Source: Cyclobacterium sp. SYSU L10401
Lineage (GTDB): Bacteria > Bacteroidota > Bacteroidia > Cytophagales > Cyclobacteriaceae
Assembly: GCF_010993705.1 (NCBI RefSeq)
Contig: NZ_WOFO01000004.1
Coordinates: 124,001 to 188,000, forward strand
DNA length: 64,000 nt
Direction of reading: 5' to 3'
A program made the translations under genes and the position numbers. Positions 12,655 to 33,100 of this stretch are shown in pieces. The first letter of the stretch is position 1; the number at the start of each line of letters is the position of its first letter. The notes under the pieces were generated by a model. It was given only the letters and a program-made list of their open reading frames with translations, ran no database searches and was not told the origin of the DNA.

Positions 12655-14667
12655 TCACCTCACCGGCACCCACAGCACCGCATCGGCCACCACATTGCCA
12701 TCAGCATTCTTATTGGACACTTCCACAAAAGGCGAGGTATTGGGTTTGAAACCAAAATCTCCCAGGTGCACCCATTCTCCGGAGGTCTGCCCCTCTACCC
12801 GGACATCTTCTTCCCTGATCACCATTTCATGCTCCTCAAATCCATCTCCAAGCAAAATGTTGGTTTGAGAGCTGGCATCGGCTACGCGGGAAAAATAAAC
12901 GTATACGCCATATTTTCCTGCATCCTTAATGCTTGGGCTAAAACGGGCAGAATTATTGCCGGCACTGCCTGCAAATAAAAAACTGGGACCATAGCCTCCC
13001 CTGCTCATCTTTTCCCAATCTCCGGACAGGCTCACTTGTGCTTCATCGTCATTGTCTACCAATATGTCTGCCGTGCTCCCGTCTGCCAGGGGGTTGGATT
13101 TCAGTTCCTCCTGAAGGGCTGGCACATCTACTTCCTGTACGGCCTGTCCCTCATCAATGGCCATACTGGCGGCCACGGCAGAGGCCTGACCCAATACCAT
13201 AAATACCGGCTCCATACGAATGGAACCAAAGGCAATATGACTGGCTGACATGGCTGCCGGTACAAATAGGTTTTTAGCTTCTTCACTTTTGGGAATAAGG
13301 GAGCGGTAAGCAATGGGATAGGGTCCAAAACCACCGATCTCCACATTACCTTCATTTTTGACCATTTTCTTACCATCCTTTTCGATCACAATCCGCTGAA
13401 TATTGTGGGAGTCCATGGTATAGGCCGCCATACCTATGCCATCCTCCACCACTTCTTCTCCTACACAATTGGCCTGAGTCATCACATATTCACCTATCAT
13501 TCTCCTCACTTCCCGTACATAAAGCTGTGGGGTCCAGTGGTCGTTGTCCAGGTATTCGTCTTTGGGATATCCCCATTCCTGGATCTGCTCTTGTATGGCT
13601 GCCGGCACGCGTGGATCTGTTTTGTAGAAATAAAGCAGCGATTTGGTGTAATGGGTATGGGCATCGATGATTTCCTGTCTGCGCTCATAATCTGCCTCCG
13701 GATATTCGTGGTTCATGCCTATCATATCGGTAGAAAAACCACCCCTGTTGTTAATATCCGTTTTGTTGTTCGGCATGTGGCTCCAGATAAAATAGTTGTT
13801 GAGGCTCTGCCGGTCGGGCTGGGCTTCAAAAAGCCGGACCAGCAGGTCAAACATGGAAGGATCATAGCCCTCAGGCTCGGTAATTTCAACCCTGTTGGCC
13901 GGATCATTGGTCAGACAAATGCGGTAATTGTAAGCCTGAATCTTATCATCCCCTGTGCCATCCGGCTGCAATTCATCCTCACTGATGCCCCACAACAATC
14001 CGCTGGAAGGATCACCCGGTGTTTTGTAAGGATCTATGCCATCCGGAAACTGGTGCCCGGTCATCAGTTGCACCCCATTATAGGTTTCACCATACATGGA
14101 ATTGGCCTCTCTTCCAATGGCATAACTAACCCCTGACAAAGCCATCAGGTCTCCCTCATAGGTAGCATCAATTACCATTTCCCCTGCCACATACCGGCGA
14201 TCAGCGGAAGGATTGCCGGACTTTTCCAACTCAATTTCCAGGATAAATCCATCTTCTTTATTGACACCTATGACACGATAATCATATTGCACTTCTATTC
14301 CCGCCCTGTCCAGGTAATCCTGAAAGGTTTTTTTGGCCACACTGGGTTCAAAAATCCATTGTTCAAATTTGCCATAATGGTCGCCCAGCCTCCTGTAAAA
14401 ATCCCTGGACAAACCGGTCACGGCATATTTATTTCCGATATCCGTATATCCCAATCCGCCGGTGGTCAAGCCGCCTAAATGATGGCTGGGCTCAATCAGC
14501 ACTACCGATTTACCCATGGTTTTCGCCGTGTAAGCGGCCATGATTCCGGCTGAATTCGCTCCATATACCACTACATCATAATTTTCTACCTCAGTCTCTT
14601 TTTCAGTAGAACAGGAAAAGGTCAGCCAAACGAAGACAAAACAAAGAGATACAATTGGATTTTTCAT
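12655..14667 (-). CDS. Exported FAD-dependent oxidoreductase with C-terminal golvesin/xanthan-lyase-like domain
   Basis: A 670-residue lipoprotein (lipobox LTFSC, Cys19). Residues 30-73 carry the FAD-binding Rossmann start VVVYGANSAGIMAAY and the family motif GGLTTGGLG, as in the FAD_oxidored family. Two further blocks are shared with the four intact paralogues: MPNNKTDINNRGGFSTDMIG (about 315-335) and [15 protein letters not shown] (about 500). Unlike the three paralogues next to SusD, it has an extra 120-residue C-terminal beta-rich domain (from about residue 550) resembling the golvesin/xanthan-lyase C-terminal module. The reaction is probably oxidation of a sugar hydroxyl or a related carbon, but no family member guides a precise call. 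It is last in the co-directional locus, 15 bp after a sulfatase gene. The older label xanthan lyase is likely wrong for the catalytic domain. Confidence 0.85.
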   Translation of the reverse strand: MKNPIVSLCFVFVWLTFSCSTEKETEVENYDVVVYGANSAGIMAAYTAKTMGKSVVLIEPSHHLGGLTTGGLGYTDIGNKYAVTGLSRDFYRRLGDHYGKFEQWIFEPSVAKKTFQDYLDRAGIEVQYDYRVIGVNKEDGFILEIELEKSGNPSADRRYVAGEMVIDATYEGDLMALSGVSYAIGREANSMYGETYNGVQLMTGHQFPDGIDPYKTPGDPSSGLLWGISEDELQPDGTGDDKIQAYNYRICLTNDPANRVEITEPEGYDPSMFDLLVRLFEAQPDRQSLNNYFIWSHMPNNKTDINNRGGFSTDMIGMNHEYPEADYERRQEIIDAHTHYTKSLLYFYKTDPRVPAAIQEQIQEWGYPKDEYLDNDHWTPQLYVREVRRMIGEYVMTQANCVGEEVVEDGIGMAAYTMDSHNIQRIVIEKDGKKMVKNEGNVEIGGFGPYPIAYRSLIPKSEEAKNLFVPAAMSASHIAFGSIRMEPVFMVLGQASAVAASMAIDEGQAVQEVDVPALQEELKSNPLADGSTADILVDNDDEAQVSLSGDWEKMSRGGYGPSFLFAGSAGNNSARFSPSIKDAGKYGVYVYFSRVADASSQTNILLGDGFEEHEMVIREEDVRVEGQTSGEWVHLGDFGFKPNTSPFVEVSNKNADGNVVADAVLWVPVR

Positions 14668-14682
14668 GATTTTGGTTTTAGG

Positions 14683-16461
14683 TTAATTCATACTTTTAAA
14701 TAGCAAAAGCCGGACATCCATGACCTGATCACCCGGGATCTCCAGGGCTTCCAATACCATCTCGGACCTTCCTTTATTTAAATTGATCCTTCCCAGGTTC
14801 ATGGGTTTAAAATCTTTCACATAGGATTCCATTCTTTCCACCCGGTCGTTTTCCATACCACGGATGGGAGGGTCATGCGCCTCCAATACCTGTGCTTGCA
14901 CCTGATTATCCCCGACTGATAATTGGATCCTGGAACCCAGATTCTGTTCGCTACAGGTGTAATACAATTCCACCTCAAATTCACCCGCTTCCATGACATC
15001 CACATCCCAGGTGATTTTATCTGTTGTACTGGTCCAGTTGGTGAAAAATGAATCGTTGGGAAACCGGTTGCTGCGCTGTATATTGCCATGAGCTATTCCA
15101 TCCCGGGCGGGCATTTGGGTGATAGAAGCGCCCGGGTATCCCAAGGTAAATGGCCTGTCCTTCCCATCCAACTCCGCAGCCATTTCCTGGTCCCAGCTTA
15201 TTTTCGCCTGAACAAGCTGTTGGGCAAGTTCCGGATATTCACCAGCGATATCCGTAGATTGTCCCGGATCATTTACCATATCATAAAGTTTGGCCTCCTT
15301 GTCCAGGCGGTACTGCTGGGACCGGACACTGGTATTTCCATTCCAATGACTGAAAATCATCCGGTCATCCCAGGACGGATTGTCCTCCAGCATGAGCGGT
15401 AGCAGGCTTTTACCGTCCAGTGGCTTAGGGAATAAAGGTTCTAAACCAGCCAAATCCACCAGGGTCGGCAGGATGTCGATGGCCCCAGCAATCTCTGTAA
15501 TGGTCTTCCCCTGAGGAATCCTTCCGGGCCATTGAATAAAAAAGGGACTGCGAACACCACCCTCATCAGTAGATCCTTTCCTGCCCTTCATGTCTCCATT
15601 CCAGCGAAAACTGTTGGGGCCATTATCGCTGAGGTAAATCACAATGGTATGCTCTTCCAGGTCCAGCTCCTTTAACTTATCCATCACCCTTCCCACATTC
15701 CAATCTATATTTTCACACATGGCAAGGGCTGCCTTGGTGAATGGAAGGTCTTCATTTCGATCTTCCGGCAAGACCTTTTCCAATTCCCTTGTCTCCAATT
15801 TTTCCCACCATTGGTCCGGAACCTGCATGGGTGAATGGGGGGTATTGTAGGGCAGATAGACCAGAAATGGGGATTCCCGGTTATTTTCAATGAATTCGAT
15901 GGCCTTTGTGGTAAAGTCATCCACTACATAGCCTTCTCCCTGTACCATTTTTCCGTTTTCCTCCAGTGGTGGACTGAAATAATCTCCCCAATGACCGGAG
16001 CAAAAACCATAAAAATAGTCAAAACCCCTTGAATTGGGATGATAGGGATGCTGCGTGCCATTGTGCCATTTACCAAAGGCACCCGTAGCATATCCTGCTT
16101 GTTGGAACAACTCAGCAAAAGTGGTTTCGTCCAAATCCAGCCTTTCCTCGCCTGCTGATGTGCCACTAACCCCTCCCCTCAGGTGGTACCTTCCGGTTAG
16201 CAATTCAGCCCGGGTAGGAGAACAAACAGGGGCCACATAAAAGCGGTCAAAATTCAACCCGTTTTGCGCCAGCTGATCGATATTTGGCGTGGATAGGTTG
16301 GTGTTTCCGCTGTGACTCAAATCCCCCCAACCCTGATCATCTGATAAAAAGATGACCACATTGGGAACTGCGGAGCGATCCTGCTGCACAGGCTTTTGAC
16401 AGCCCAGGCAGCACAGAAGGCTCAGGAAAAGAAAGAAAAAAGGCTTTCTCAGAGAAACCAT
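14683..16461 (-). CDS. Type I sulfatase lipoprotein with C-terminal beta domain
   Basis: A 592-residue sulfatase counted from the ATG at 16461. A GTG two codons upstream (16467) is also possible but overlaps the preceding stop. Lipobox CCLGC gives Cys21. Motifs are PNVVIFLSDDQGWGDLSHSG, the formylglycine site CSPTR (Cys80), GKWHNG and YLSDNGPNSFRW. After the sulfatase fold, about the last 130 residues form a separate beta-sandwich-like segment (ITWDVDVMEAGEFEVELYY) that may bind carbohydrate. It lies between two FAD oxidoreductases, 5 bp after one and 15 bp before the other, so they are probably co-transcribed. It is the only sulfatase in the SusCD locus, so the imported substrate probably carries a sulfate ester. 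Confidence 0.92.
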   Translation of the reverse strand: MVSLRKPFFFLFLSLLCCLGCQKPVQQDRSAVPNVVIFLSDDQGWGDLSHSGNTNLSTPNIDQLAQNGLNFDRFYVAPVCSPTRAELLTGRYHLRGGVSGTSAGEERLDLDETTFAELFQQAGYATGAFGKWHNGTQHPYHPNSRGFDYFYGFCSGHWGDYFSPPLEENGKMVQGEGYVVDDFTTKAIEFIENNRESPFLVYLPYNTPHSPMQVPDQWWEKLETRELEKVLPEDRNEDLPFTKAALAMCENIDWNVGRVMDKLKELDLEEHTIVIYLSDNGPNSFRWNGDMKGRKGSTDEGGVRSPFFIQWPGRIPQGKTITEIAGAIDILPTLVDLAGLEPLFPKPLDGKSLLPLMLEDNPSWDDRMIFSHWNGNTSVRSQQYRLDKEAKLYDMVNDPGQSTDIAGEYPELAQQLVQAKISWDQEMAAELDGKDRPFTLGYPGASITQMPARDGIAHGNIQRSNRFPNDSFFTNWTSTTDKITWDVDVMEAGEFEVELYYTCSEQNLGSRIQLSVGDNQVQAQVLEAHDPPIRGMENDRVERMESYVKDFKPMNLGRINLNKGRSEMVLEALEIPGDQVMDVRLLLFKSMN

Positions 16462-16466
16462 AAACA

Positions 16467-18158
16467 CTAGTTAGATGCAATCCTGTCTTCTAAGGTAAGG
16501 ACTTGTCCATCCTCCAGCAATTTTGCCTTCAAATCCTCATAGGAAAGGTCTTGTACGGGGATTCCCTGCTCCATGGCCATCACAGCTGCCGTGGTGGCGG
16601 ATTGACCCAATATCATAAATACCGGCTCCATCCGGATAGACCCGAAAGCAATATGGCTTGCAGAAACAGCCACAGGCACCACCAGGTTTTGAATCTCCTC
16701 CTTCTTTGGCACCAGGGAACCGAAAGCAATTTCATAAGGCTGTGGCAGCGGAACACCTATATCCCCTTCATTGTGCACATGGCCATTCTCATCTACATAC
16801 CGCTGTATATTGTGGGAATCGATGGTGTAAGAACCCATTCCTACCGATTCAGGGGTGGGTTTCTTTTGCAACAATTCATTTTCCGTCATCACGTATTTAC
16901 CGATCATGCGGCGTGCCTCTCTGACATAAATCTGATGCGGCCAGTTGCCATTATCGGTAAACTCATCTTTGGCCAATCCCCATTTCTGAAATTCCTCCTG
17001 GGTTTCCTTCGGCACCCTGGGGTCATTGCCTACAAAATACAGCAGGCCTTTTTGGTAATCCTCGTGCTCTTTGATGATTTCCTTTCTGCGTTCATAGCTG
17101 GCTTCAGGATAATCGTAGTTCATGCCAATATTATCCGAACTGAAGGGACCATGGTTATTGGTATCGGTTTTTCGATTCGGGATCATGTCAAATTTTCCAA
17201 ACCATTCCCTCCAGCCTGCATCAAATATGCGGACCAGGAGCTCATACTGGGTGGAATCGTAATTTTCAGGCCGGGGAAAAGGAACCCGATTATCCGGATG
17301 GTTGGACATGCAGGTACGGAAGCAATACGCCTGAACTTTGTTGTCGCCCTCCCCTTTGATTCCCGGGTCTTCCGCACTTATTCGTGGCAACAGGCCGGAG
17401 GAAGGGTCTCCCTTCGTCCAATAGGGGTCAATGGGTTGGTCCAGTACTTTAAAGTGGTGTTTGTGGTGGTAAACTCCGGTCTGTACACCGTTCCATTCTT
17501 CGTCATAGACACTGTTGGCTTCCCTGCCCACGTGGTAACTTACACCGGCAGCTGCCATCAAATCTCCTTCATAGGTGGCATCGACAAACATTTTGCCTTT
17601 GAACTCTTTTCCGCTGAGGGTACGGATAGCGGTTATTTTTCCATCTTCCACCGTAACACCGCTTTCCCGGTCCAGCCATTCGTCACGCAACACTTCTATG
17701 TCCAATTCCTCTACCCACTCATCGTATACTTCCTCAGCCACGTGGGGTTCAAAAATCCACATGGTACGAAATTCCCCGTCAATAGCCGGAGTTCCCTGGC
17801 CCTGATTGCCAAAATCAGCCTGATCTTCCCATTTCCAGGCATCATCTTCCTGGTATTTGTCATATACTCGCTGGTAAAATTCCCTGGAAAGCCCACCGAT
17901 CACTTCCTTCTTTCCCGTATCGGTCCAACCCAGGCCTCCGGCAGTAAGACCTCCCAGGTGGGTATCCGGGGAAACCATAATCACGGTTTTTCCCATCTTC
18001 TTGGCCTGAATGGCCGCTGTTACTGCTCCGGAAGTACCTCCGTATACGATTACATCTGTGATTTCTTCCTGATCCTCAGCAGGGCTACAGGCCATAAAAG
18101 CCAGCAACATAAAAAAGGCCAGGAAAAGATTTCCTAAATTATCTAACATTTTCATCAT
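16467..18158 (-). CDS. Exported FAD-dependent oxidoreductase
   Basis: A 563-residue lipoprotein from the ATG at 18158 (MMKMLDNLG). The frame is open to 18281, but that would overlap the DUF1080 gene, and the later start gives a clean signal peptide with lipobox LAFMAC (Cys24). The FAD motif VIVYGGTSGAVTAAIQ is followed by GGLTAGGLGWTDTGKKEVIG, diverged from the [16 protein letters not shown] of the three SusD-proximal paralogues. [18 protein letters not shown] and [15 protein letters not shown] are conserved. No extra C-terminal domain is present. It lies 31 bp after the DUF1080 gene and is followed directly by the sulfatase. It probably has a separate substrate or position specificity, because it forms its own branch by eye. 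The reaction is not established. Confidence 0.87.
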   Translation of the reverse strand: MMKMLDNLGNLFLAFFMLLAFMACSPAEDQEEITDVIVYGGTSGAVTAAIQAKKMGKTVIMVSPDTHLGGLTAGGLGWTDTGKKEVIGGLSREFYQRVYDKYQEDDAWKWEDQADFGNQGQGTPAIDGEFRTMWIFEPHVAEEVYDEWVEELDIEVLRDEWLDRESGVTVEDGKITAIRTLSGKEFKGKMFVDATYEGDLMAAAGVSYHVGREANSVYDEEWNGVQTGVYHHKHHFKVLDQPIDPYWTKGDPSSGLLPRISAEDPGIKGEGDNKVQAYCFRTCMSNHPDNRVPFPRPENYDSTQYELLVRIFDAGWREWFGKFDMIPNRKTDTNNHGPFSSDNIGMNYDYPEASYERRKEIIKEHEDYQKGLLYFVGNDPRVPKETQEEFQKWGLAKDEFTDNGNWPHQIYVREARRMIGKYVMTENELLQKKPTPESVGMGSYTIDSHNIQRYVDENGHVHNEGDIGVPLPQPYEIAFGSLVPKKEEIQNLVVPVAVSASHIAFGSIRMEPVFMILGQSATTAAVMAMEQGIPVQDLSYEDLKAKLLEDGQVLTLEDRIASN

Positions 18159-18189
18159 TTTTTGGGATTTAATGGGTACTATTTTGGTA

Positions 18190-18933
18190 TTATAACTTTC
18201 TGATCTTGATATTTTTAAACCATACCGGACCACCATGATCCTGCAGGCCAATTTTACCATACAATTGCATGGCATAGTCAAAGGCTGAAAATTTACTCGC
18301 TGCTACTGCGCTTCTCCATTCCGGTGAGTTGGCATCGAATGCAAGTATTTGCTTGCCATTCAGCCAATGTTCCATTTTACCTGCCCGGGATACAATACGG
18401 GTCCTGTTCCAGTTACCCGGAGCACGGGCTTCCATGGAGGAAGGCGCCAACACATCTGAATTCGCACCGGTTTTTTGATTATCCTGCAATTCCTGCGGAT
18501 AATTTTCATCATCGATAATCTGAAATTCAGGCCCTGTATGATGGATTCTGGGATATTCAGGGGATTCAACTACAAAATAAAAAATCCCACTATTTCCATG
18601 GGTTTCAATTTTCCAGTCCACCTTAAGTTCAAAGTCCGAAAACAGCTCATCCGTTACCAGGTCCCCACTTCCGCCATCCGTGTACAACACGCCATCTTTT
18701 ACCTTCCAGTCTGTGGTTGCTGCTCCCAGGTAGCCATGCCAGCCTTGGGTTGAGACACCATCAAACAATAACTCCCATTCTTCCGCTTTTTCGGCCTCAG
18801 TCAGCCTGTTAGGTACTTCCGGCCCGGCTGTAACAGCTACCTCCGGCATCTCTTTTTCCTTTCTGTCACCTGACCCGCAAGCACTTATGGTAAGGAAGAT
18901 GAGGACAATATAAATAAATTTCTCTAGTTGCAT
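18190..18933 (-). CDS. DUF1080 (3-keto-disaccharide hydrolase-type) lipoprotein
   Basis: A 247-residue lipoprotein (lipobox TISAC, Cys19). The mature part is a concanavalin-like beta sandwich of the DUF1080 family. It shows EEWELLFDGVSTQGWHGYLG, YTDGGSGDLVTDELFSDFEL, the central NSGIFYFV and the closing KIGLQDHGGPVWFKNIKIRKL. Some family members cleave 3-keto-glycosides made by a dehydrogenase, giving the Pfam name 3-keto-disaccharide hydrolase; others simply bind. Here it lies between a Gfo/Idh/MocA oxidoreductase (39 bp upstream) and an FAD oxidoreductase (31 bp downstream). That fits an oxidise-then-cleave pathway. The length is normal. Confidence 0.88.
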   Translation of the reverse strand: MQLEKFIYIVLIFLTISACGSGDRKEKEMPEVAVTAGPEVPNRLTEAEKAEEWELLFDGVSTQGWHGYLGAATTDWKVKDGVLYTDGGSGDLVTDELFSDFELKVDWKIETHGNSGIFYFVVESPEYPRIHHTGPEFQIIDDENYPQELQDNQKTGANSDVLAPSSMEARAPGNWNRTRIVSRAGKMEHWLNGKQILAFDANSPEWRSAVAASKFSAFDYAMQLYGKIGLQDHGGPVWFKNIKIRKL

Positions 18934-18972
18934 AAAGTCAAATGTATGGGTAAATGAATCCTATCCAAAGGG

Positions 18973-20370
18973 TTAAACCTGATGTACAAGCTCCATCTTC
19001 TCCGGATCCCAGCCCATGATTTTTTTCTCAAAATAACTGATATTCCCTGCTTCTGTGGGTCCGGATGCCCGAAGTCCGAATACCGCATCCTCTACTACAG
19101 GTTTTCCCGTCCGGATGGAGTCAAAGAAATTGACAAAGTGTTCGTATCGATCTCCCTTGTAATCGGAAGGAACCTTGAATTCAAACTCGGAGGGGCCTAC
19201 CAGAGAGGCTGTAGCTGGGTATTTTTTTTGGTGATCTGCTCTTATGGCTTCCTGCATGGCTTCGGGAAAACTGTTGAGGGACATCCCGGGGTCTTTGGGA
19301 AAGGGAGTTTTGCGTAAGGTAAGGCCGGTAAAGCCAATGGAAATATCACCCTCCGACCCAACGATCCGAAATAGAAAATTATCGCCTCCTCCACTGACCA
19401 GATTGGTTCTTAAAGCCAGGTTAAAGGCAGGGTGTTCTGAGGATTCGGGGTAATCGAATAAGCCCAAATGCAAGTCCGGTACATCCCGGCCATCTTTCCA
19501 GTATCGCAGGCCCCCTGTGGCCACAACCCGGTTTGGCCCTTTAGATCCGGTTACAAAGTGAAGCATGGAAAGCATGTGTACATACAGGTCACCGGCCACC
19601 CCGGTTCCATAATCGCGGTAATTTCTCCACCGAAAAAACCGGAGTGGATCCCAGGGCCGGTCAGGTGCCTGCCCCAGGTAGGTATCCCAGTCTACTGTCT
19701 GGGGAGAAGCATCCAGCGGAACGGTATATTGCCAGGCCCCTCTGGCACTGTGCCGATCAATTTGAGCCTCCGCAAAGTTGATCTCTCCAATTTCCCCGGC
19801 GGCAATCAGCTCCTTTGCCTTGGCATGTATGATGGAACTTACGTATTGACTCCCCACCTGAAATACCTTACCGGTCTTTTTTTGCATGGCGATGATGGCA
19901 TGACCGTCTTCGGATTTTTGGACCATGGGTTTTTCACAATAGACGTGCTTCCCCTTTTCCATGGCATCCAAACATATTTTTTGGTGCCAATGGTCTGTGG
20001 TGGCATTGATCACGGCGTCCACATCGGATCTTTCCAGGATTTCACGGTAATCTTTGGTGGTAAACAGGTCCTTTCCCCATAGCTCTTTTGCACGGACAAG
20101 CCTCCCATCGTAAAGGTCACAGGCAGCCACCACTTCTACACCTTCCACCATGAGTGCGGTATTCACATCCCCTATACCCATGCCACCGGTTCCGATGACC
20201 GCAATCCTAATGCGGTCATTGGCCGTCCTTTTTTTTCTTCTTCCTTTCTCCAAAATTGAAACGGCCACTTTTGGAGAGGCAGTAGCCAGGGGTACTCCTG
20301 TGGCCACCACGGCAGAGGCACTGAGTTTTTTGATAAATGATCTCCTGGTGTTATCCGTTACATACTTCAT
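18973..20370 (-). CDS. Tat-exported Gfo/Idh/MocA family oxidoreductase
   Basis: A 465-residue NAD(P)-dependent oxidoreductase counted from the ATG at 20370 (MKYVTDNTRRSFIKK). The frame opens ten codons earlier, but this Met places a Tat motif (TRRSFIKK) near the N-terminus, followed by ASAVVATGVPLATAS. The nucleotide-binding start is RIAVIGTGGMGIGDV and the family EKP motif is YCEKPMVQ, which usually carries the catalytic Lys. DWDTYLGQAPDRPWDP is typical of the large exported Bacteroidota/Planctomycetes subgroup. Tat export implies folding with bound cofactor before crossing the membrane, as known for Zymomonas glucose-fructose oxidoreductase. It is 39 bp upstream of the DUF1080 gene. A sugar C3 dehydrogenase is the leading hypothesis. 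Confidence 0.9.
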   Translation of the reverse strand: MKYVTDNTRRSFIKKLSASAVVATGVPLATASPKVAVSILEKGRRKKRTANDRIRIAVIGTGGMGIGDVNTALMVEGVEVVAACDLYDGRLVRAKELWGKDLFTTKDYREILERSDVDAVINATTDHWHQKICLDAMEKGKHVYCEKPMVQKSEDGHAIIAMQKKTGKVFQVGSQYVSSIIHAKAKELIAAGEIGEINFAEAQIDRHSARGAWQYTVPLDASPQTVDWDTYLGQAPDRPWDPLRFFRWRNYRDYGTGVAGDLYVHMLSMLHFVTGSKGPNRVVATGGLRYWKDGRDVPDLHLGLFDYPESSEHPAFNLALRTNLVSGGGDNFLFRIVGSEGDISIGFTGLTLRKTPFPKDPGMSLNSFPEAMQEAIRADHQKKYPATASLVGPSEFEFKVPSDYKGDRYEHFVNFFDSIRTGKPVVEDAVFGLRASGPTEAGNISYFEKKIMGWDPEKMELVHQV

Positions 20371-20381
20371 GTGTTCAACGT

Positions 20382-20835
20382 TTAGGTATTTTCCGGCCAT
20401 TGGGTTTGGATCCCCTGAGACCGGATGAAATTTTGAAATTCAGTTAATAATTTACTGTTGGCCCTTACTTTCCTGGGGGATATTTTTTTATTTTTTGCAA
20501 ACGCAATCAACAAACCAACTGCCTCACCAATACTCCATTCTACTGGTGCCAGGCGGTAACAGCCATTGGTAATATGGGTGGTTCCAATATTTTTACTGGC
20601 AGGAATCAGGTTTTCCATCCGAATGGGTAGCAGGGCTCCCAATGGGATCTGAAAGGGAAGCGGCCATGGCTGCAGCAAAACCTCCCAAGCCTCCTCCGGC
20701 AACGATTATATCTGCTTTCATTTCTCCACCTACATCATCCGATTTTACCGGATTTCCAAAAGTAGAAAACAAGGGGAAAGCGGAAGTAGCTATTCCCCCT
20801 GTTGATACAAGTCCTATAAAATCTCTCCTTTCCAA
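20382..20835 (-). pseudogene. FAD-dependent oxidoreductase with a large internal deletion
   Basis: The N-terminus reads ERRDFIGLVSTGGIATSAF, a Tat-like leader, and then the FAD-binding strand ADIIVAGGGLGGFAAAMAAS, after which the frame loses sense. In another frame, starting within the same bases, a normal C-terminus follows: IPLGALLPIRMENLIPASKN through GCYRLAPVEWSIGEAVG to a stop at 20382. The middle, probably several hundred residues, is missing, with the junction near 20660 and a frame change. No ATG opens the frame: the choices are TTG at 20835 or ATA five codons earlier, which may be a mutated ATG. It sits between the Gfo/Idh/MocA gene and an intact FAD gene. Its motifs differ from the five intact paralogues, so it was a distinct flavoprotein. 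Confidence 0.82.
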
Positions 20836-20901
20836 TATTCCTTGTTTTATCTGCCTCCACCTTCCAATTAGGAATGGCTTCTGATTTGGTTAACCAATGG
20901 G

Positions 20902-22611: not shown

Positions 22612-22652
22612 GTGTTTATAATTTGATTTTTAATGGTCAGATGGAATCTTTG

Positions 22653-22701: not shown

Positions 22702-22751
22702 GTCGATTTCATGATTTTTTATTTTAAAGAATGGAATTTAAGGAATTTTCA

Positions 22752-24456: not shown

Positions 24457-26262
24457 TTACTCCAAGCGCTGCCGATAGGTAATTAATTCATTTCTTAACA
24501 TTCCGTAAGGGACATCTTGTACGCTGCTATTGGCATCCATCGCCAGGACAGCGGCCATACCGGCCGACTGGCCCAAAACCATAAATACAGGTTCCATCCG
24601 GATGGAACCAAAAGCAATATGGGTAGCACTCAGGCATACAGGTACCAGGAGATTCTTCCCTTCTTCTTTCTTTGGAACAATGGATCGGTAACTTATCGGA
24701 TAGGGCCCTGCCACACTTCCTTCTACATTTCCTTCGTTTTTCACAAAGCCATTGGCATCTACAAATCGCTGAACATGGTGAGAATCCATACCATAGGCGG
24801 CCAATGCTATCGGATCCGCTGCTACTTCAAGTCCTTCACAATGGCCTTGGGTCATGACATAATCACTCAGCATCCTGCGGGCTTCCCGAATATAGAGTTG
24901 CTCTGGCCAACCATCCTCCCTGCTGTATTCATCCTTGCAGGTTCCCCATTTAGATACTTCCTCCCGGACGATTTCAGGTATTCTGGGATGATAGGCAAGG
25001 GTCCACATCAGGCCCTTTTGGTATTCTCTGTGGGCTTCGACGATTTTCTCCCTTTCTTCATACGTTCCCTCAGGATAGGCGTAATTTTGTCCGATAAAAT
25101 CGGTCGAAAAGCCATGTTTGTTATTGGTATCTGTCTTCCGGTTGGGCATGGCCGAATTGGCCCAGGGAAGGTAAGGCACTCCATAATCATACATGGTCTG
25201 TACATCGTTGGCCGCTTCGTAATTCCGAAAAAGCAGCTCATAGTTTGCCTCATCATAGGTTTCGGGCTTTTCAAAGGGAATCCTGTTTTCAGGATGATCA
25301 GTAAGGGTCATCCGAAAACAATACGCCTGAATTTTTGCGTCCCCACTTCCATCAATCCCCGGTCCCAAAGGCGAAATAAATGGTAGTAAACCGGAATCCG
25401 GATCACCCGGAACAATGTATGGATCCACACCGTCCACAAAATTGTGGTTCCTGCCATTCTTTGCTGGTCTTCCGCGTAAGGTGACTCCATAGGCATTTGC
25501 CTGAACACCATTGAGGCTTTCACCATATTGACTATTCGCTTCTCTGCCTATAGAATAGCTTACACCAGCCGCAGCCATCAGGTCCCCTTCGTAAGTGGCA
25601 TCAATAAATACTTTTCCATAGTATTGCTTTCCGCTTTCCATCGTCAGAGAAGTAATGAATTGGTTATCCATATTTACACCCATTTTTCTTTCCAGTCGCT
25701 CCCCAAATACGATATCAATTCCGTTTTCCTTCCTTATCATTTCCTCAAAAACATGCAAGGCAGCAGACGGCTCAAAGGTCCACATGGTCTCTTCTCCATC
25801 CTCAGAACGGGAATAGGCCACTCCTTTGTAATTTTTCTTTTCCTGCCATATCCAGTTTTCAGGCTGATCGTAGTACAGCTTTATATTTCGGTAAAATTCC
25901 CTGGCTATTCCTCCTATCGCTTGCTTGTTTCCGATATCCGTTTGTCCCAGACCACCTGTGGTGAGCCCTCCCAATCTATTTTCAGGTTCAATCAACACTA
26001 CTTGCTTACCCATTCTGGCTGCCTGAATTGCGGCAGTGATGCCAGCGGAAGTCCCTCCATAAACCACCAAATCATGCCGGCTAACCTGAGAGAAAACCTT
26101 AGGAGAGTAACAAATGCAAAGAATGGTAAAGAGGAATATCGGGAGCAAAAAGGCAAGACTTTTCTTTGCCCCTTTTCCCTGGGCAACATTAATAGCTAAG
26201 GGAAGGGATTCCTGCCCCAAACGTTTGGGGTAGGAATCCCTGAAATCATCAATTTTCAGCAT
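24457..26262 (-). CDS. Exported FAD-dependent oxidoreductase, first gene after SusD
   Basis: The frame is open to 26337, inside susD. The first sensible ATG is at 26262, 12 bp after the SusD stop, giving 601 residues. The N-terminus is odd: about 30 residues precede the hydrophobic signal segment [18 protein letters not shown], and this leader is encoded across a 36-bp palindrome. The true start may instead be a non-ATG codon after the palindrome. The rest is standard: [54 protein letters not shown] and [15 protein letters not shown]. Its place directly after SusCD suggests it handles the imported ligand first. The start is uncertain, the family call is not. Confidence 0.85.
26204..26241. repeat. 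Near-perfect 36-bp palindrome at the SusD/FAD gene junction
   Basis: GGGATTCCTGCCCCAAAC (26205-26222) and GTTTGGGGTAGGAATCCC (26223-26240) pair at 17 of 18 positions with no loop bases beyond the centre. An outer A-T pair extends it. It lies within the first 60 bases of the downstream open frame. As RNA it would form a very stable hairpin near the start, so it could attenuate or separate the SusCD part from the enzyme part of the transcript, or be an inserted palindromic element. Confidence 0.7.
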
Positions 26263-26273
26263 CAGCTCCGGTA

Positions 26274-27953
26274 TCAATAACCCGGATTCTGGGTCAATGC
26301 TGTATTGGTTTCCAACTCTATCCGTGGAATGGGCCACAGGTAATCCCTGCTAGGATTGAAATCGCGGGTCTCTACCACCACCATTTCATCTGCATTGCTG
26401 ATATGGTCATAGCTTGGCGTGCCAATAGGGTCTATCATCGGAGGCTCATCAAGCCAGCCACCTTCTCCGTACCGATTTACCCTGCCCCGGTAAGGTCCCG
26501 GCATCACATCCTCGGCAATTCCCCATCTTCTGATATCAAAATACCGGAATCCTTCTATGCCTAGCTCATGTCTTCTTTCCTTGCGAACCAGGTTTCTCAA
26601 TTCCTCTTGAGTTTTACCACTTTCTATGACCGGCATCTGAACCGATTCCCTTTGTCTCAAGGCATTGATGGCCTCATAAACACTTTCATCCAGCTGGTTT
26701 AATTCCACCTTGGCTTCGGCATAATTCAGCAACACTTCCCCTAATCTGAAAATGGTCAGGTTCTGATCCGTAGAGCCCACATCTGTGGGATAATTGGCCA
26801 GATCCACATGCTTGCGGTACAGGTATCCTGTAAAGGAGGCATAGGCATGCTGTGCCTCTATATTTTCTACCCTTACCGAATCATCCCCTCTGAATTCCCA
26901 GGTCATGGTACTGTCACTGTGGGTTTCAAATATCCAGTTTACCAGGCGGGAGCCGGGTACCACCAGGGTATAATCCAATCGGGGATCCCGGTTTTCAAAA
27001 GGATTTTGCGGATCGTACAGGGGCGATTCATCGATGGGCAATCCATCTATACAATCATAGGTATCCACCATATCCTGCGGCGGTTTTTTATTGGAATGAC
27101 CCAATGCCATCCGTGACCAGAAGTTTCTGGGCATATTGTGTGTTTGCACCCCTCTCAGGTACTGTATCCGGGTAATTACCTCAGGGGAATTGTCCCCGGC
27201 GAAGGTAAACATGCCCTCGTAATCCGGATCTACAGTATAGGCTTCTGAATCCATAAGTTCTTTGGCAGCTGAAGCAGCCTCCTCCCAACGCTCGTTCCAA
27301 AGGGCTACCCGGGACATCATCGCCAGAACTGTTCCCTGCGTAATCCTGCCCTTATCCGAGGCATCCATAGGTAAGTAGTCCTTTATCTCGTTGAGTTCAC
27401 TCATTACAAAATCGATTACTTCCGATTTTGGAGACCTGGGAGTTTGCGATTCCTCCAGCGTAAGCGTATTCGTCACCAAGGGAACATCTCCATATAATTC
27501 TGCCAGGTAGGCATAGAAATACGCCCTGATAAATCTGGCTTCCCCTACCAGCCTGTCATATTTAGACGGATCCATTTCATCGCGCAGGTGGCTACCACGG
27601 GAGGTGATAAAATTGGTACGGTTGATAGCCCGGTAGAAGTGGGACCAGAAGCCATTGGTAAAACCATTGTCTGCATTTTGTTCACCTCTTCCCAAGGCTT
27701 GAAGCGGGCTTCCATTTCGGTCCCAGCCATCATCCGAGGCAAAATCAAAGGATAAAAACCAGGCGATTCCTGCAGGCCAGTACCAGAGGCGGTTATATAC
27801 CCCAGTAACGGCCATTTCCAGTTCCGTTTCATTTTCAAAATAGGTCTCACTGGATGGAGAATCCAGTGGCATCCGCTCCAGAAATTCATCTTCACATGCC
27901 GCTGAGAAGAATAGAACGGGTAGTATTAGTATATATTTAAATAGATTTTTCAT
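26274..27953 (-). CDS. susD: SusD/RagB family outer-membrane glycan-binding lipoprotein
   Basis: A 559-residue lipoprotein from the ATG at 27953. An upstream Met at 27980 would overlap susC, and this start gives the signal peptide [20 protein letters not shown] with Cys20. SusD features are the opening [18 protein letters not shown], helical repeats such as [20 protein letters not shown] (about residues 135-155), [13 protein letters not shown] near residue 430 and the closing [20 protein letters not shown]. It caps the SusC pore on the cell surface and binds an oligosaccharide. It starts 14 bp after susC's stop, so they are translated from one message. The ligand is unknown. The symbol is used in its family sense, not as a starch-system claim. 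Confidence 0.95.
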
Positions 27954-27966
27954 TGGTTCCTGCTGT

Positions 27967-30900
27967 TTAGAAGTTAACATTCAAGCCCATGGTATAGGTA
28001 GTCATCTGCGGGTACCAACCTCCATTACTGACCGGTGCTTCGGGATCATATCCTTCATAAAAATCCGTAATGGTAAACAGGTTTCTACCGCTCAGGTAGA
28101 TACGTGCCCGCTGAATATTCAGTATATCAAGGACATTTTCAGGAAGGGAATAACCCAACTGCACATTCTGTCCTCTCAAATAAGCCGCATTACGCATCCA
28201 AAAGCTGGAGTTCTGTTCGTTGTTGGTTTGGTTCCAGGCCAATCGGGGAAAGGATGCATCCGTATTATCGGGTGTCCAGCGGTCTTTGTGCTGCTCCTGT
28301 ACCGTTCCTCCCAGATAAAAAGGCATGATTCCCTGCCCAAACATGTAACCATCTGCTTTACCAACTCCCTGCAAAAACAAAGAGAAATCAAAGCCCTTGT
28401 AATCAGCGTTCAATCTAAGACCAAAGGTATGTCTGGGAATAGGGCTACCTATTACGGCCAGATCCCGGTCATTGATCATGCCATCTCCATCTACATCCCG
28501 GTATTTGATGTCTCCGGGTGCTACATTCCCAAATTGGTCGGCATGATTGTCCACTTCCTCCTGACTTTGAAACAAACCTTCGGAAATGTATCCGAAAAAG
28601 GAACCGATGGGGTAACCTTCCCTGTTTACGGTCAGGCCGGTATTTTCTATACCCCGCATGTCAACAATTTCATTCCTTACGTCGGAATAGTTGACCATGA
28701 TGCTGTAATTCAGGTCTCCTACCTTGTTGCGGTAATTGACCATCAATTCATAGCCGTTGTTTTTCACCTCCCCAGCATTCTGAAAAGGTGCACTAAGGCC
28801 AATGGTCTGCGGAATATTCAATGCCAGCAAGATGTCTTTTGTTCTTCTCATGTAATAGTCCGCCGCTACATCCAGCTTGCCCCAGAGGTTAAAATCCAAT
28901 CCGATGTCGGTGGTTTCTGTCAGCTCCCATTGGATGGAGGAATTGGCCATGCTATTCAAGGCCGCTCCCGGAGCATTGGCCCCGTCAAACACGTAGTCCT
29001 GTGCTCCTCCTCCCAGGGACATGAAGGCGGCAAAGGGGTATAAACCAATATTTTGGTTACCCAACTGCCCCCAGCTTGCCCTCAACTTCAACTGGTCTAT
29101 GATACTGGAAGTGCCCTGCATGAAACTTTCTTCCGAGATTCTCCATCCGGCAGAAAAGGAAGGGAATACCCCTACCCGGTTGCCTTCAGCAAAACGGGAA
29201 GAAGCGTCTCTACGTACATTTCCTTCCAGTAAATACCTTTCATCATAATTGTAAGTCACCCTGCCGAAAACAGATTGTAAAGCCCAATGGGATGCGGCCC
29301 CTCCCGTTTGTTCATTGGCCCGGTTACCTGCGTTGATCTGCTGGTATTGTGGTAGTGGGAATACTTCCCGGTAAGCAGAGATCCATTTATTGGTCTGGTC
29401 TTCCTGCTGGTAACCGGCTGTAACACCCAGCGTGTGTACCTCATTGAACGTTTTGTCCATGGTAACAATAGCCCGGATGTTGTTGTACCATTCCCGGTCA
29501 TACCTTTCTGTTAGGGAATTTCTCTGGGGCACAAAATGCGTAGGAGTCTCTCCATCCCTGGCATAGGTTTGGGTAATATTGGAGAAGCTTTTGGTATGTG
29601 GGTTCCAGAATTTGGGGGCATACATCAGCTCAGCGGACAGCCAATCGGTAATTTTGTAATCCAGGCGAAAGTTAAGAATGGCATCCAGACTTTCTACTGT
29701 CCGTAGCCCACCATCTTTTGCTCTGGCCAGTGGATGATCCCCATTCCAACCTTCTCCATAGCGACCATTGGAGAGAAGTCCCACTTCATTGGCCGGAATC
29801 CGGCGCATCCAGTGGAATACGTACCCGGTGCCGGAGGAGGGTTCCCGCTGGTAAGCCCTGCGTAAAAATATATCTGTAGACAGGGTCAGCCTATCCGAAA
29901 CATTGACATCAGAGTTGAGCCTGATGTTAAACCGGTTAAAATCTGTATTGGGGATGATCCCGTCCTGGTCCAGGTAACTGATGGATCCAAAAATCTTGGC
30001 TTTTTCACTACCTGCATTGATGCTCACATTGTGGTTTTGCATGAAGGCCGTATTCTTTAGGGTCAGGGCCTGCCAATCGGTGTCCGGATACCGGTCTGAG
30101 GGCATACCCGCCCGGTAATCGGCAAGGAATTGTTCAGAGTATTGGGGGTCATTGCCCACATTGGTAAAAGCTTCATTGGCCAGTTCCATGTGATCCAGGG
30201 CTCCTACGATTTCCGGCATGCGGGTGGGGACCTGGAAACCGGCATACATGTTATAATTCACCCTTACGCCTTCCACACCTCTTTTGGTGGTAATCAGCAC
30301 CACCCCATTGGCTGCACGAGCACCATAGATGGCCGCCGAAGAGGCATCTTTCAATATAGAAATATTTTCTATTTCATTCGGGTCTACATTGTTCAGGTTG
30401 GTTTCTACCCCATCCACCATGATCAGGGGATTGGAGTCACCCAAGGTACCCAAGCCCCTGATTCGGATAGCCCCTCCATCTGATCCGGGCTGTCCACTTC
30501 TCTGGGTGATGGTCACTCCTGGCGCGATTCCCTGCAATGCCATGGAGGTTTGTCCTACCGGCTGATTGACAATGTCTTCCGAAGTTACCGTGCTTACTGC
30601 CCCGGTAAGGTTCACCTTTTTCTGTGTTCCATATCCCACGACCACAATTTCATCCAGTGAGGATAAGTCTTCCTCCATGGTTACAGTGATTTCATTTTGG
30701 TTGCCCAATTCTATTCGCTGGGATTCGTACCCGATAAAAGAAATTACCAAAACAGCATCATCAGGTACTTCCAGGTTAAAATTACCGTCAATATCCGTAG
30801 CTGTACCGATATTGGTTCCTTCCACCAGCACAGTCGCACCGGGAATACCCTCACCATTGGGATCCAGTACCCTCCCACTGACAGGGCGTTCATCTATTAC

Positions 30901-31290
30901 AATTTCTATGGGTGAATCCAGGGCCTGGTTTCCCGGCGCAACATAAATGGAATTGTCCACCTGCTTGAATTTCAGGTTAGCTCCAAGTGCAACATCCAAC
31001 AACAATTCATTGACGGATTGCTTTTTACTTTTAAGTTCCAACAGGGAGTTATTTTCCAGAATATCCTCAGGTAAGACGAAATGATAGTCCGTATTTTCTT
31101 CCACTACCCGGAAGATTTCCTCAAGTCTCCATTCCTCCTTTTTCAGGCGAATATAGGACTCATCAATGGGTTTGATCTGGGCACTGATCTCATGTGCCAT
31201 CAATGTAGTCATCAACAAACATTGAAGAACCAAACCATACAATAGGTTTTTCGATACCATTTTGATTAGGTACAGTAATTTTCTTTTCAT
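27967..31290 (-). CDS. susC: SusC-type TonB-dependent receptor with N-terminal STN signalling domain
   Basis: A 1107-residue outer-membrane transporter. After a signal peptide (to about residue 38, AHEISAQ) comes an STN domain (about 45-120, EWRLEEIFRVVEENTDYHF). A carboxypeptidase-like beta domain (VSGRVLDPNGEGIPGATV, about 138-215) and the TonB-dependent plug (EIVVVGYGTQKKVNLTGAVS onward) follow. The plug contains the SusC motif LMVDGVETNLNNVDP-like segment, and then the 22-strand barrel ends in Phe (TYTMGLNVNF). The STN domain is absent from plain SusC proteins and marks those that signal through a FecR anti-sigma factor. The FecR and ECF sigma genes are immediately upstream on the same strand, a strong functional match. 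Substrate import needs TonB-ExbBD from elsewhere. Confidence 0.96.
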   Translation of the reverse strand: MKRKLLYLIKMVSKNLLYGLVLQCLLMTTLMAHEISAQIKPIDESYIRLKKEEWRLEEIFRVVEENTDYHFVLPEDILENNSLLELKSKKQSVNELLLDVALGANLKFKQVDNSIYVAPGNQALDSPIEIVIDERPVSGRVLDPNGEGIPGATVLVEGTNIGTATDIDGNFNLEVPDDAVLVISFIGYESQRIELGNQNEITVTMEEDLSSLDEIVVVGYGTQKKVNLTGAVSTVTSEDIVNQPVGQTSMALQGIAPGVTITQRSGQPGSDGGAIRIRGLGTLGDSNPLIMVDGVETNLNNVDPNEIENISILKDASSAAIYGARAANGVVLITTKRGVEGVRVNYNMYAGFQVPTRMPEIVGALDHMELANEAFTNVGNDPQYSEQFLADYRAGMPSDRYPDTDWQALTLKNTAFMQNHNVSINAGSEKAKIFGSISYLDQDGIIPNTDFNRFNIRLNSDVNVSDRLTLSTDIFLRRAYQREPSSGTGYVFHWMRRIPANEVGLLSNGRYGEGWNGDHPLARAKDGGLRTVESLDAILNFRLDYKITDWLSAELMYAPKFWNPHTKSFSNITQTYARDGETPTHFVPQRNSLTERYDREWYNNIRAIVTMDKTFNEVHTLGVTAGYQQEDQTNKWISAYREVFPLPQYQQINAGNRANEQTGGAASHWALQSVFGRVTYNYDERYLLEGNVRRDASSRFAEGNRVGVFPSFSAGWRISEESFMQGTSSIIDQLKLRASWGQLGNQNIGLYPFAAFMSLGGGAQDYVFDGANAPGAALNSMANSSIQWELTETTDIGLDFNLWGKLDVAADYYMRRTKDILLALNIPQTIGLSAPFQNAGEVKNNGYELMVNYRNKVGDLNYSIMVNYSDVRNEIVDMRGIENTGLTVNREGYPIGSFFGYISEGLFQSQEEVDNHADQFGNVAPGDIKYRDVDGDGMINDRDLAVIGSPIPRHTFGLRLNADYKGFDFSLFLQGVGKADGYMFGQGIMPFYLGGTVQEQHKDRWTPDNTDASFPRLAWNQTNNEQNSSFWMRNAAYLRGQNVQLGYSLPENVLDILNIQRARIYLSGRNLFTITDFYEGYDPEAPVSNGGWYPQMTTYTMGLNVNF

Positions 31291-31380: not shown

Positions 31381-32367
31381 TCATAGGCTGTTCTTATTTA
31401 AGATAACTTCTTTTTGATTGATGCTGAATTCAAAGCCCAGAGAAAAGCCCAGGCCGGTAAGTACGTCGTTCAGGTTTTTGTTGCGGAAAGTGCCAATCAC
31501 CCGGCGGTTCACATTGATCCCGGGGTCAATTTTCATTGCTACCCCATACCATCTTTCCAAATCTTCCAAAATAATTATTAAGGGCTTTCGGTCAAAAACA
31601 AGTATATTTTCTTTCCAGCCGGTGACTGATTCCAGGTCAAATTTCTCCACCCTTAGCTCCGGTGAAGCATCGTTCTTGACCAATCTGGCCAATTGTCCCG
31701 GTTCTAATTCTACTGAAGTTTGGGCTCCATCCACAGCAACCCTGCCCTCCGTAAGGGCTACTGCAACGTCCCCGGATCTGGCATAGGCATTAAACCTGGT
31801 ACCCAAAGCCCTGGTAATCATCCCATCAGCTTCCACCCGGAAAGGCCTCAGGGAGTCTTTGGCTATCTCAAAAAAAGCCTCCCCGGATAAACGGACCTTC
31901 CGTTCTTCTACCCCATATAAAGATGAAAATGAAATTGATGAATTGGCATTCAGGGTGATTTTAGTATCATCGGGAAGGGTAAGTCGCAGTTTTTCACCTT
32001 CCCCGGTACTTCTCTCCATTATTCTTTCTGCAAGTACAGGATCGGGGTCCTTGTAATCCATAGCCTGCATTAAAAAATAAGCACTAGCTATAACCAACAG
32101 CAGGCTGGCTGCAACTTTCCAATACTTAAGCCAGGGTCTTAATGGTCTGATTTTGGAGCCGGGAAAAATTCTGGAGTGAATCTTTTCCAGCAGCAATGGA
32201 TAATCTGTATTATCCATTGAATTGGGTTCCACTTGCTTCCAATGGTCACGAAGGAAACGATCAAATTTTTCCCTGGCATCGTCCTGCTCCAGCCATACCA
32301 TTACCTGCTTGCGTTCTGCAGCACTGGCTGTTCCATTTAAAAATTTGATGAGCAGGTCTTTTTCCAC
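31381..32367 (-). CDS. FecR family anti-sigma factor
   Basis: A 328-residue inner-membrane regulator starting at GTG (32367). The cytoplasmic N-terminus (1-80) binds the sigma factor. One membrane segment, WKVAASLLLVIASAYFLM (about 83-101), follows. The periplasmic FecR domain (about 120-225, EKLRLTLPDDTKITLNANSS) and a C-terminal DUF4974-like domain (about 255-325, KPLIIILEDLERWYGVAMKI) contact the receptor STN domain. It lies 142 bp downstream of the ECF sigma gene and 90 bp upstream of susC, all co-directional. This is the standard Bacteroidota trans-envelope set: ligand-loaded SusC signals via STN to FecR, which releases the sigma factor. Confidence 0.94.
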   Translation of the reverse strand: MEKDLLIKFLNGTASAAERKQVMVWLEQDDAREKFDRFLRDHWKQVEPNSMDNTDYPLLLEKIHSRIFPGSKIRPLRPWLKYWKVAASLLLVIASAYFLMQAMDYKDPDPVLAERIMERSTGEGEKLRLTLPDDTKITLNANSSISFSSLYGVEERKVRLSGEAFFEIAKDSLRPFRVEADGMITRALGTRFNAYARSGDVAVALTEGRVAVDGAQTSVELEPGQLARLVKNDASPELRVEKFDLESVTGWKENILVFDRKPLIIILEDLERWYGVAMKIDPGINVNRRVIGTFRNKNLNDVLTGLGFSLGFEFSINQKEVILNKNSL

Positions 32368-32509
32368 TGGGTTTATGGTATTTTGTAAGTATAAAACACA
32401 AGTAAACCCATTTACTTAATGAATGGTAAAAAATAATTAAATTAAGTTAAAAAATATGTTTAAGTAAATTTCTCAAAATTAAATTTTATATAAAAACCAT
32501 TTAATACTA

Positions 32510-33100
32510 TTATAAAAAATATATACCTGTGAAAATCAGCCATGAAAAAGATGGATGATGCAGTAAGCCCTTTCTGAGAGATTTCGATGCCAGGTACAGG
32601 TGGTGTTCAATGGTTCTTTTGGAAAGGTTCATCTGCAGCGCAATCTGATCACTGTTCATTCCCTTAAATTTGTTCAATTTAAACACCTCCTGCTGCACTT
32701 TGGGCAACCGGCCAATCATCTCCAATGCCAGTTCTTCCAACTCCTGATAGGCCAATGTAGCTTCCGGGTCCTGCGCTACAGGTATTTGTTCAATAGCAGC
32801 GGTTTCCAGACAACATTCCTTTTTCCTGTCCCTGATATGGTTGTACATATAGAATTTTACAGCCTGGAAAAGGTAACTTTTGAAAGATTTTGATTCATCC
32901 AGCTTTTTCCTCCTCTCCCAAATCCTTACAAATATTTCCTGCACCGCTTCTTCTGCCAGATGCTGATCGGTGAAAAAGGTCAATGAAAAGGCCATGAGTT
33001 TTTTGGCATACCTGAGGTATAATTCATCGAATGCCTTGACATCCCCTTGTCTAAGGCTAATGAGTAATGCTTCGTCCGTAAGATTTTCCAGCAATCCCAT
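32510..33100 (-). CDS. ECF sigma factor (FecI-like, Bacteroidota type)
   Basis: A 196-residue sigma-70 family factor. The ATG at 33100 is preferred over a TTG two codons earlier. Region 2 covers about residues 20-90 (FDELYLRYAKKLMAFSL; LAEEAVQEIFVRIWERRKKL). Region 4 is about residues 125-180 (LEMIGRLPKVQQEVFKLNKF; NLSKRTIEHHLYLASKSLRK), the usual helix-turn-helix. It heads the locus, with FecR next and SusC after, and should activate the susC promoter and perhaps its own. The C-terminus ends in a short hydrophobic tail (FSWLIFTGIYFL), common in this Bacteroidota subgroup. No -10/-35 pair could be fixed by eye. Confidence 0.94.
   Translation of the reverse strand: MGLLENLTDEALLISLRQGDVKAFDELYLRYAKKLMAFSLTFFTDQHLAEEAVQEIFVRIWERRKKLDESKSFKSYLFQAVKFYMYNHIRDRKKECCLETAAIEQIPVAQDPEATLAYQELEELALEMIGRLPKVQQEVFKLNKFKGMNSDQIALQMNLSKRTIEHHLYLASKSLRKGLLHHPSFSWLIFTGIYFL

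Follow-up and report, generated by a model that had tools for sequence, protein, structure and literature searches.

A SusCD-type locus of Cyclobacterium centred on PF12831 flavoproteins, with a possible role in the oxidative use of sulfated sugars

What might a SusCD-type uptake locus be doing when its enzymes are mainly flavoproteins? Hydrolases and lyases are the usual marks of a glycan locus, and the question is raised by a set of genes in Cyclobacterium sp. SYSU L10401 (contig NZ_WOFO01000004.1), within a stretch of 64,000 nucleotides that we analysed as a whole and refer to as the window; all positions are in window numbering, names of the form G0xx denote congeneric genomes and those beginning with L denote loci elsewhere. 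Read along the minus strand, between positions 33106 and 12655, the genes encode, in order, a sigma factor, FecR, SusC, SusD, three flavin adenine dinucleotide (FAD)-type oxidoreductases (FADa, FADb and FADc), the remnant of another, a Gfo/Idh/MocA enzyme, a DUF1080 protein, a further flavoprotein (FADd), a sulfatase and a last flavoprotein (FADe). An original prediction had listed this content, with five intact flavoproteins and a deleted sixth on one strand, and Pfam, NCBIfam and sequence reading confirmed it throughout. We propose, with middling confidence, that the locus serves uptake of a sulfated glycan or glycoside, and that most of its cell-envelope chemistry would be oxidation, with the flavoproteins acting on the sugar units.

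The SusC and SusD genes are adjacent and exceed the curated cut-offs of their models (TIGR04056, TIGR04057 and PF07980), which makes this a SusCD locus as defined by its transporter. In the carbohydrate-active enzyme (CAZyme) sense, whereby a polysaccharide utilisation locus (PUL) holds at least one glycoside hydrolase (GH) or polysaccharide lyase (PL), it is not a PUL by Pfam; no such family was found among the 17 open reading frames (ORFs) scanned between 10445 and 39743, which upholds the earlier statement that none is recognisable.

The five intact flavoproteins all match PF12831 over the full profile (1-416), with 374.7-392.4 bits against a cut-off of 27, and make up five of the 11 matches in the genome that cover nearly the whole profile. 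They fall into three classes: FADa and FADc (66% and 68% identical, respectively, to FADb) form class I together with FADb, whilst the pairwise identities among FADb, FADd (class II) and FADe (class III) are all about 50%. Residues H449, R453, H502, R509 and E511 (FADb numbering) are invariant. Sorted by simple identity, 48 aligned flavoprotein sequences gave 39 of class I, eight of class II and one of class III. FADe ends in a golvesin domain, a type that an excerpt of PMC9166713 places in the CBM6-CBM35-CBM36_like_2 group. The N-termini of all five look like Sec or lipoprotein signals; a twin-arginine translocation (Tat) route was considered for them and rejected, there being no twin arginine within the first 35 residues. 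The remnant of the sixth gene holds a C-terminal tail in one frame and, unlike the five intact proteins, a twin-arginine N-terminus in another.

Searches brought up no close solved structure for the flavoproteins: sequence and profile matches in the PDB, at the thresholds applied, stop at the nucleotide-binding stretch, NCBIfam gave short nucleotide-binding matches only, and fold searches of the PDB and BFVD returned the general FAD-binding superfamily. For a confident AlphaFold2 model of FADb (predicted local distance difference test, pLDDT, 89.7; predicted TM-score, pTM, 0.91), the top Foldseek matches (6t85, E 4e-8; 1p2h; 5vpn) lie in the group of urocanate reductase, flavocytochrome c3 and FrdA, with TM-scores no higher than 0.34 of the query among the 50 matches listed. 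Since the PDB sequence matches are confined to the nucleotide-binding stretch and no fold is close, the chemistry of the flavoproteins is not given by homology.

When the corresponding region of 11 other Cyclobacterium genomes was set beside the window (12 loci), the block proved to be present in all 11 congeners, and the ratio of non-synonymous to synonymous change (dN/dS) between the window and G004 was 0.025-0.135 across the 11 genes compared; the arrangement is therefore not a product of chance, and the flavoprotein classes are kept under purifying selection. Every one of the 12 loci encodes the sigma factor, FecR, SusC, SusD, at least one class I flavoprotein (copy number one to three), one of class II, a sulfatase and one of class III, the sulfatase and class III genes of G007 each being split into two ORFs. 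That three classes exist, and that genes of all three are kept in 12/12 loci, favours different roles for the flavoproteins.

The two halves of the locus appear to differ in their history. For the flank at 57810-63555 the nearest congeners are G004 and G011, which match almost its whole length at 81% and 80% nucleotide identity, respectively, and G003 and G006 match its larger part at 75-76%, whereas the block from the downstream DUF885 gene to FADb (10445-24419) shows 94-98% protein identity to G006, and FADc, the Gfo/Idh/MocA enzyme, FADd, the sulfatase and FADe show 95-99% to G003. The synonymous difference is 0.13-0.34 for this enzyme block, against at least 0.61 for SusC, SusD, FecR and the sigma factor when compared with G006. 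The DUF885 gene, at 0.19 to G006, behaves like the flavoprotein block and shares its history, though its product is probably not part of the pathway. DNA of the flavoprotein remnant is also found in G003 (98%) and G006 (93%), and in G003 (locus L041) nearly identical enzymes stand behind another SusC/SusD pair (40% and 27% identity); a swapped transporter, in other words. A block nearest to G006 and G003 beside a flank nearest to G004 and G011 argues for recombination of the enzyme half, and the simplest reading is that this half was exchanged between lineages, likely recently, whilst the regulator and transporter half was kept.

A wider scan of genomes yielded at least 588 confirmed relatives, from which 80 loci were kept, in Bacteroidota, Planctomycetota, Verrucomicrobiota and a few others (L092, from Cyclobacterium, was left out of the survey). 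Neighbours were annotated with profiles built from these loci, and with Pfam for selected proteins; 20 regions at positions of our own choosing, in nine other genomes and one congener, served as controls. Eight neighbour families were tested at 18 class II loci outside Cyclobacterium, with p values uncorrected. Class II genes are associated with sulfatases (6/18 loci against 0/20 controls, p = 0.007) and also with FecR (5/18 against 0/20, p = 0.02), and SSF transporters did not differ significantly (2/18 against 1/20). Class III genes are associated with SusCD: the sample outside the genus comprises nine loci (three among the matches listed in one search, six from another), and a SusC-SusD pair lies directly upstream of class III, in the same orientation, in L201, L202, L203, L205 and L206; in L061 a single gene separates the two, and L064, L067 and L204 have no such pair ahead of class III. 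This hand count of 6/9 compares with SusD anywhere in 2/20 controls (Fisher p = 0.004), SusC occurring in 4/20.

Two of these loci illustrate the arrangement. In L205, from another family, three PF12831 genes stand in a row (4204-11131) after sigma-FecR-SusC-SusD, the middle one encoding 1001 residues with a twin-arginine N-terminus, whilst in L206 (8973-14711) SusCD is followed by class III, DUF4886, Gfo/Idh/MocA and an enolase-superfamily protein (36.4 bits, cut-off 29.4), a gene set that might form a sugar-acid route. Clustering of neighbour ORFs yielded few shared families. In 395 evenly drawn genomes of the bacterial class, window's genome included, at least six carry class I (E <= 1e-180), at least 11 match the class II query (E <= 1e-150; class I cross-matches included) and at least eight match class III (E <= 1e-150); among the matches listed, all three classes occur together in the window's genome only. 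The original view, in which exported flavoproteins and a sulfatase form the centre of a SusCD locus, is supported.

Among the remaining enzymes, the sulfatase carries C-S-P-T-R at residues 82-86 within a PF00884 domain, and so has the C-x-P-x-R motif by which S1 formylglycine sulfatases are recognised; its nearest PDB entries are the kappa-carrageenan sulfatase 9fo1 (S1_16) and 9hh3 (S1_19), at 217-219 bits, a likeness that we would take as a substrate lead only. With PF01408 above its cut-off and EKP at residue 156, the Gfo/Idh/MocA protein belongs to that superfamily, and its twin-arginine motif, which had been predicted, is present as 'RRSFIKK'. It scores 134.9 bits with the NCBIfam model for the BT_2158 glycoside 3-dehydrogenase (NF058561), far under the cut-off of 750, and lies outside that family; its nearest PDB entries by sequence are 8tdf and 8tdh ('dehydrogenase') and DgpA, all of which we take to be glycoside 3-oxidising enzymes. 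By score, the DUF1080 protein has a 3-keto-disaccharide hydrolase domain (PF06439), one of 24 such matches in the genome.

Judged by their families, the enzymes of the locus would be exported, with the sulfatase removing sulfate and the flavoproteins carrying out flavin-dependent oxidation, and we propose a model on this footing. SusCD would import oligomers, from which the sulfatase would remove sulfate; the flavoproteins might then oxidise hydroxyls of particular sugar units, with one task per class and class I duplicated for substrate variants, and the Gfo/Idh/MocA enzyme, using tightly bound NAD(P), could contribute an oxidation or reduction of the C3 type. The resulting keto or acid products may be cleaved by elimination, by DUF1080-type enzymes (that of the locus or the 23 other PF06439 matches) or by an activity yet to be recognised, and the cleaved products would be taken into the cytoplasm. 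Besides the domain content, the conservation and the associations given above, the model draws support from the glycan-type genes that neighbour related flavoproteins in other loci (GH20 in L174, L175 and L205, GH16-CBM6-CBM35 in L203, GH115 in L061, WbsX in L090, and Gfo/Idh/MocA with an enolase-superfamily gene in L206) and from the golvesin domain of class III.

Several observations weigh against this proposal. Searches of the literature and the PDB found no comparable PF12831 protein with a known substrate and, with neither a characterised relative nor a close solved structure, the label 'sugar oxidase' rests on context. At class II loci there is no significant enrichment of SusC (6/18 against 4/20 controls), SusD (4/18 against 2/20), Gfo/Idh/MocA (3/18 against 1/20) or DUF1080 (1/18 against 1/20), the controls are few (20, at chosen positions), and seven of the 18 class II loci came to light by way of a class I neighbour. 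Class I lies mostly outside SusCD loci; the 22 Bacteroidota loci with class I and without class II include SusC in four and a sulfatase in four, and the other 50 loci, mostly from Planctomycetota and Verrucomicrobiota, include SusC in one and a sulfatase in eight. Lastly, CstA-family genes neighbour the flavoproteins in 5/40 Bacteroidota loci (4/18 with class II, 1/22 without), which might indicate a small organic acid as product.

Amongst the alternatives, we consider it somewhat unlikely that the flavoproteins are auxiliary, GHs encoded elsewhere in the genome doing the depolymerising and the locus only trimming unusual side groups. Dispersed systems have been described; an excerpt of PMC11345257 reports SusC/D genes with no co-directional CAZyme gene beside them, and one of these has an FAD-dependent oxidoreductase nearby. 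GHs also adjoin FAD genes in several relatives: GH20 follows paired FAD genes in L174 and L175 and stands in opposite orientation beside those of L205, a GH16-CBM6-CBM35 protein comes next after class III in L203, and GH115, with a weak GH39 match, is among the neighbours in L061. Gene order speaks against a merely auxiliary role, however, since the first gene after SusD encodes a flavoprotein in 8/12 Cyclobacterium loci, and a sulfatase-like protein followed by a flavoprotein in the other four (in G002, G007, G009 and G010, SusD is followed by an additional sulfatase-like gene); the same position is taken by a flavoprotein in five class III loci of other families.

A second alternative, which we regard as rather improbable, is that the substrate is no polysaccharide; a sulfated small molecule or glycoconjugate would instead be imported, desulfated and oxidised, and in species that possess CstA- or SSF-type transporters these would take up a small organic acid. 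Five Bacteroidota loci do have a CstA-family gene (about 484 residues) after the flavoprotein genes (PF02554 by Pfam in L077, L081, L083 and L091; by profile only in L087), an association that reached 4/18 class II loci against 0/20 controls (p = 0.04); SusCD stands alongside in four of the five, and a sulfatase too in three. An SSF gene follows class I in L099, and most SusCD-FAD loci show no recognised GH among their partly scanned neighbours. Against this stand the GH20, GH16-CBM and GH115 neighbours listed above and a WbsX neighbour in L090, the Golvesin_C domain of class III and the resemblance of the sulfatase to carrageenan sulfatases. CstA was also considered as a general part of such loci and rejected, having no match in the window's locus and occurring in so few of the Bacteroidota loci.

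The original prediction had gone further, in that the Gfo/Idh/MocA and FAD proteins would oxidise glycosides at C3 or elsewhere and the locus DUF1080 protein would cleave the ketoglycoside in the periplasm; we now find this full scheme rather unlikely. Its oxidative part keeps some support, from the relationship of the Gfo/Idh/MocA enzyme to 8tdf, 8tdh and DgpA and, below cut-off, to the BT_2158 model, and from flavoproteins that lie beside glycan enzymes elsewhere. DUF1080 adjoins Gfo/Idh/MocA at the locus, FAD-DUF1080 neighbourhoods recur in L090 (FAD class I-DUF1080-Gfo/Idh/MocA-WbsX) and L081 (FAD I-FAD II-CstA-DUF1080), and a second Gfo/Idh/MocA (49% identical) adjoins a PF06439 match on contig C3 of the genome, which favours a linked role.

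It is the cleaving step that fails to generalise. A DUF1080 orthologue (E <= 1e-50) is intact in the window's genome only (1/12); G003 and G006 keep the ends of the gene (92-95% DNA identity) and share one internal deletion, of 474 bases from gene position 186 to 659; and the other nine loci gave no trace of it (tblastn E <= 1e-8, blastn E <= 1e-5). With the near-equal counts at class II loci and controls given above, we reject the locus DUF1080 as a conserved cleaving enzyme, and find no conserved module of oxidation plus DUF1080 across species. The Gfo/Idh/MocA gene, for its part, is present in 10/12 Cyclobacterium loci and missing from G002 and G007. Since the locus is retained without DUF1080, that protein is not the sole bond-breaking enzyme, unless another PF06439 protein of the genome, of which there are 23, substitutes for it. 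Nor need the domain imply a ketoglycoside substrate: the excerpted text of PMC9007349 counts the 3-ketotrehalose hydrolase BT2157 among DUF1080 proteins, which is in keeping with the scheme, but also a characterised DUF1080-domain endo-xanthanase/lichenase. Excerpts of PMC13027841, which describe a PL domain carrying a fused PF06439-type module, and of PMC12772297 do not decide the mechanism.

Quite improbable, finally, is that the exported PF12831 flavoproteins themselves depolymerise a sulfated glycan: each class would oxidise a set position, flavin-driven oxidation with elimination would break the glycosidic bond with no GH, PL or DUF1080 enzyme, and class III, accompanied by a dedicated SusCD in several Bacteroidota families, would be the core enzyme.

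If a SusCD transporter with PF12831 flavoproteins is a real locus type, then CAZyme-based surveys would miss such loci, and a large uncharacterised set of flavoproteins, the relatives counted above, would gain a testable function in the oxidation of sulfated sugars. That comparable loci exist in other bacteria suggests that such sugars are used by an uncharacterised route based on oxidation. It is the recurrence of SusCD together with flavoproteins that gives the locus its interest, not the DUF1080 scheme, and the Cyclobacterium loci, each of which in all 12 genomes holds one gene of class II and one of class III, offer a small and direct system for finding the substrate. No published description of such a locus type was found among titles and abstracts of the open-access literature on PF12831, on loci of Cyclobacterium, or on sulfatases in combination with FAD or CstA and SusD in combination with FAD.

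Table 1. Genes of the locus and the gene directly downstream, in order along the minus strand (window numbering).
Feature	Position	Strand	Evidence
ECF-type (extracytoplasmic function) sigma factor	32510..33106	-	Pfam Sigma70_r2, Sigma70_r4_2
FecR anti-sigma regulator	31381..32367	-	Pfam FecR, FecR_C
SusC/RagA TonB-dependent transporter, N-terminal extension	27967..31290	-	TIGR04056 1004.9 bits (cut-off 368.25); TIGR04057 signature over cut-off
SusD-like lipoprotein	26274..27980	-	Pfam SusD_RagB (PF07980) 163.2 bits, SusD-like_3
FADa, class I FAD_oxidored	24457..26262	-	PF12831 383 bits; ORF open to 26337
FADb, class I FAD_oxidored	22752..24419	-	PF12831 392.4 bits
FADc, class I FAD_oxidored	20902..22611	-	PF12831 387 bits
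Remnant of sixth FAD_oxidored gene	20382..20843	-	PF12831 positions 344-409, 82.9 bits
Gfo/Idh/MocA oxidoreductase	18973..20400	-	Pfam GFO_IDH_MocA (PF01408) 66.7 bits, cut-off 24
DUF1080 / 3-keto-disaccharide hydrolase-domain protein, lipoprotein-like N-terminus	18190..18933	-	PF06439 166.4 bits, cut-off 26.8
FADd, class II FAD_oxidored, lipoprotein-like N-terminus	16467..18158	-	PF12831 374.7 bits
S1 sulfatase, C-terminal extension	14683..16467	-	Pfam Sulfatase (PF00884) 205.5 bits; C-S-P-T-R motif
FADe, class III FAD_oxidored with C-terminal Golvesin_C	12655..14667	-	PF12831 376.5 bits, PF25275 61.9 bits
DUF885 protein directly downstream	10445..12277	-	PF05960 596.6 bits

Some gene calls in Table 1 call for comment. 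The SusD-proximal FADa probably starts at the ATG at 26262, and sequence reading puts the start of FADd at the ATG at 18158 or 18155, not at an upstream TTG; the label STN for the N-terminal extension of SusC comes from the original prediction and was not named in the Pfam scan. Directly upstream of the sigma factor, at 33230-34123, lies a gene for a cupin-domain protein with a signal-like segment, and a cupin gene occupies this place in 12/12 Cyclobacterium loci. Downstream of the locus, at 9303-10080, a TacA-like antitoxin (PF08681) and a GNAT acetyltransferase form a pair that is a probable toxin-antitoxin module.

How, then, does the locus compare with systems already known? The BT2157-BT2160 type of pathway, reportedly set out in Nature in 2024, is said to combine Gfo/Idh/MocA glycoside 3-dehydrogenases with DUF1080 proteins and to lack flavoproteins of the present kind; our locus likewise has a BT_2158-related Gfo/Idh/MocA enzyme and a DUF1080 protein, but the score of the former is far below the family cut-off, the latter is not conserved and the main enzymes are flavoproteins. 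LacA of Caulobacter is a GMC-type enzyme, not a PF12831 protein, and no GMC-type gene is found among the Pfam-scanned genes of the locus. What is shared with the Caulobacter lactose/3-ketoglycoside route (LacABC plus DUF1080), as an excerpt of PMC9007349 describes it, is periplasmic oxidation together with a DUF1080 protein. The fumarate reductase, flavocytochrome c and urocanate reductase group has the FAD-binding fold in common with FADb, albeit at the low TM-scores given above and with no sequence match past the nucleotide-binding stretch, and the S1_16 and S1_19 carrageenan sulfatases (9fo1, 9hh3) share the Sulfatase domain with the locus protein, which has an extra C-terminal region of about 160 residues. 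The closest parallel in layout is with PULs of the SusCD type with an ECF sigma factor and FecR: the locus differs from these in having no GH or PL by Pfam and in enzymes that are mainly PF12831 flavoproteins, and shares with them the sigma factor, FecR, a SusC with an N-terminal extension, SusD, a sulfatase and exported enzymes in one orientation.

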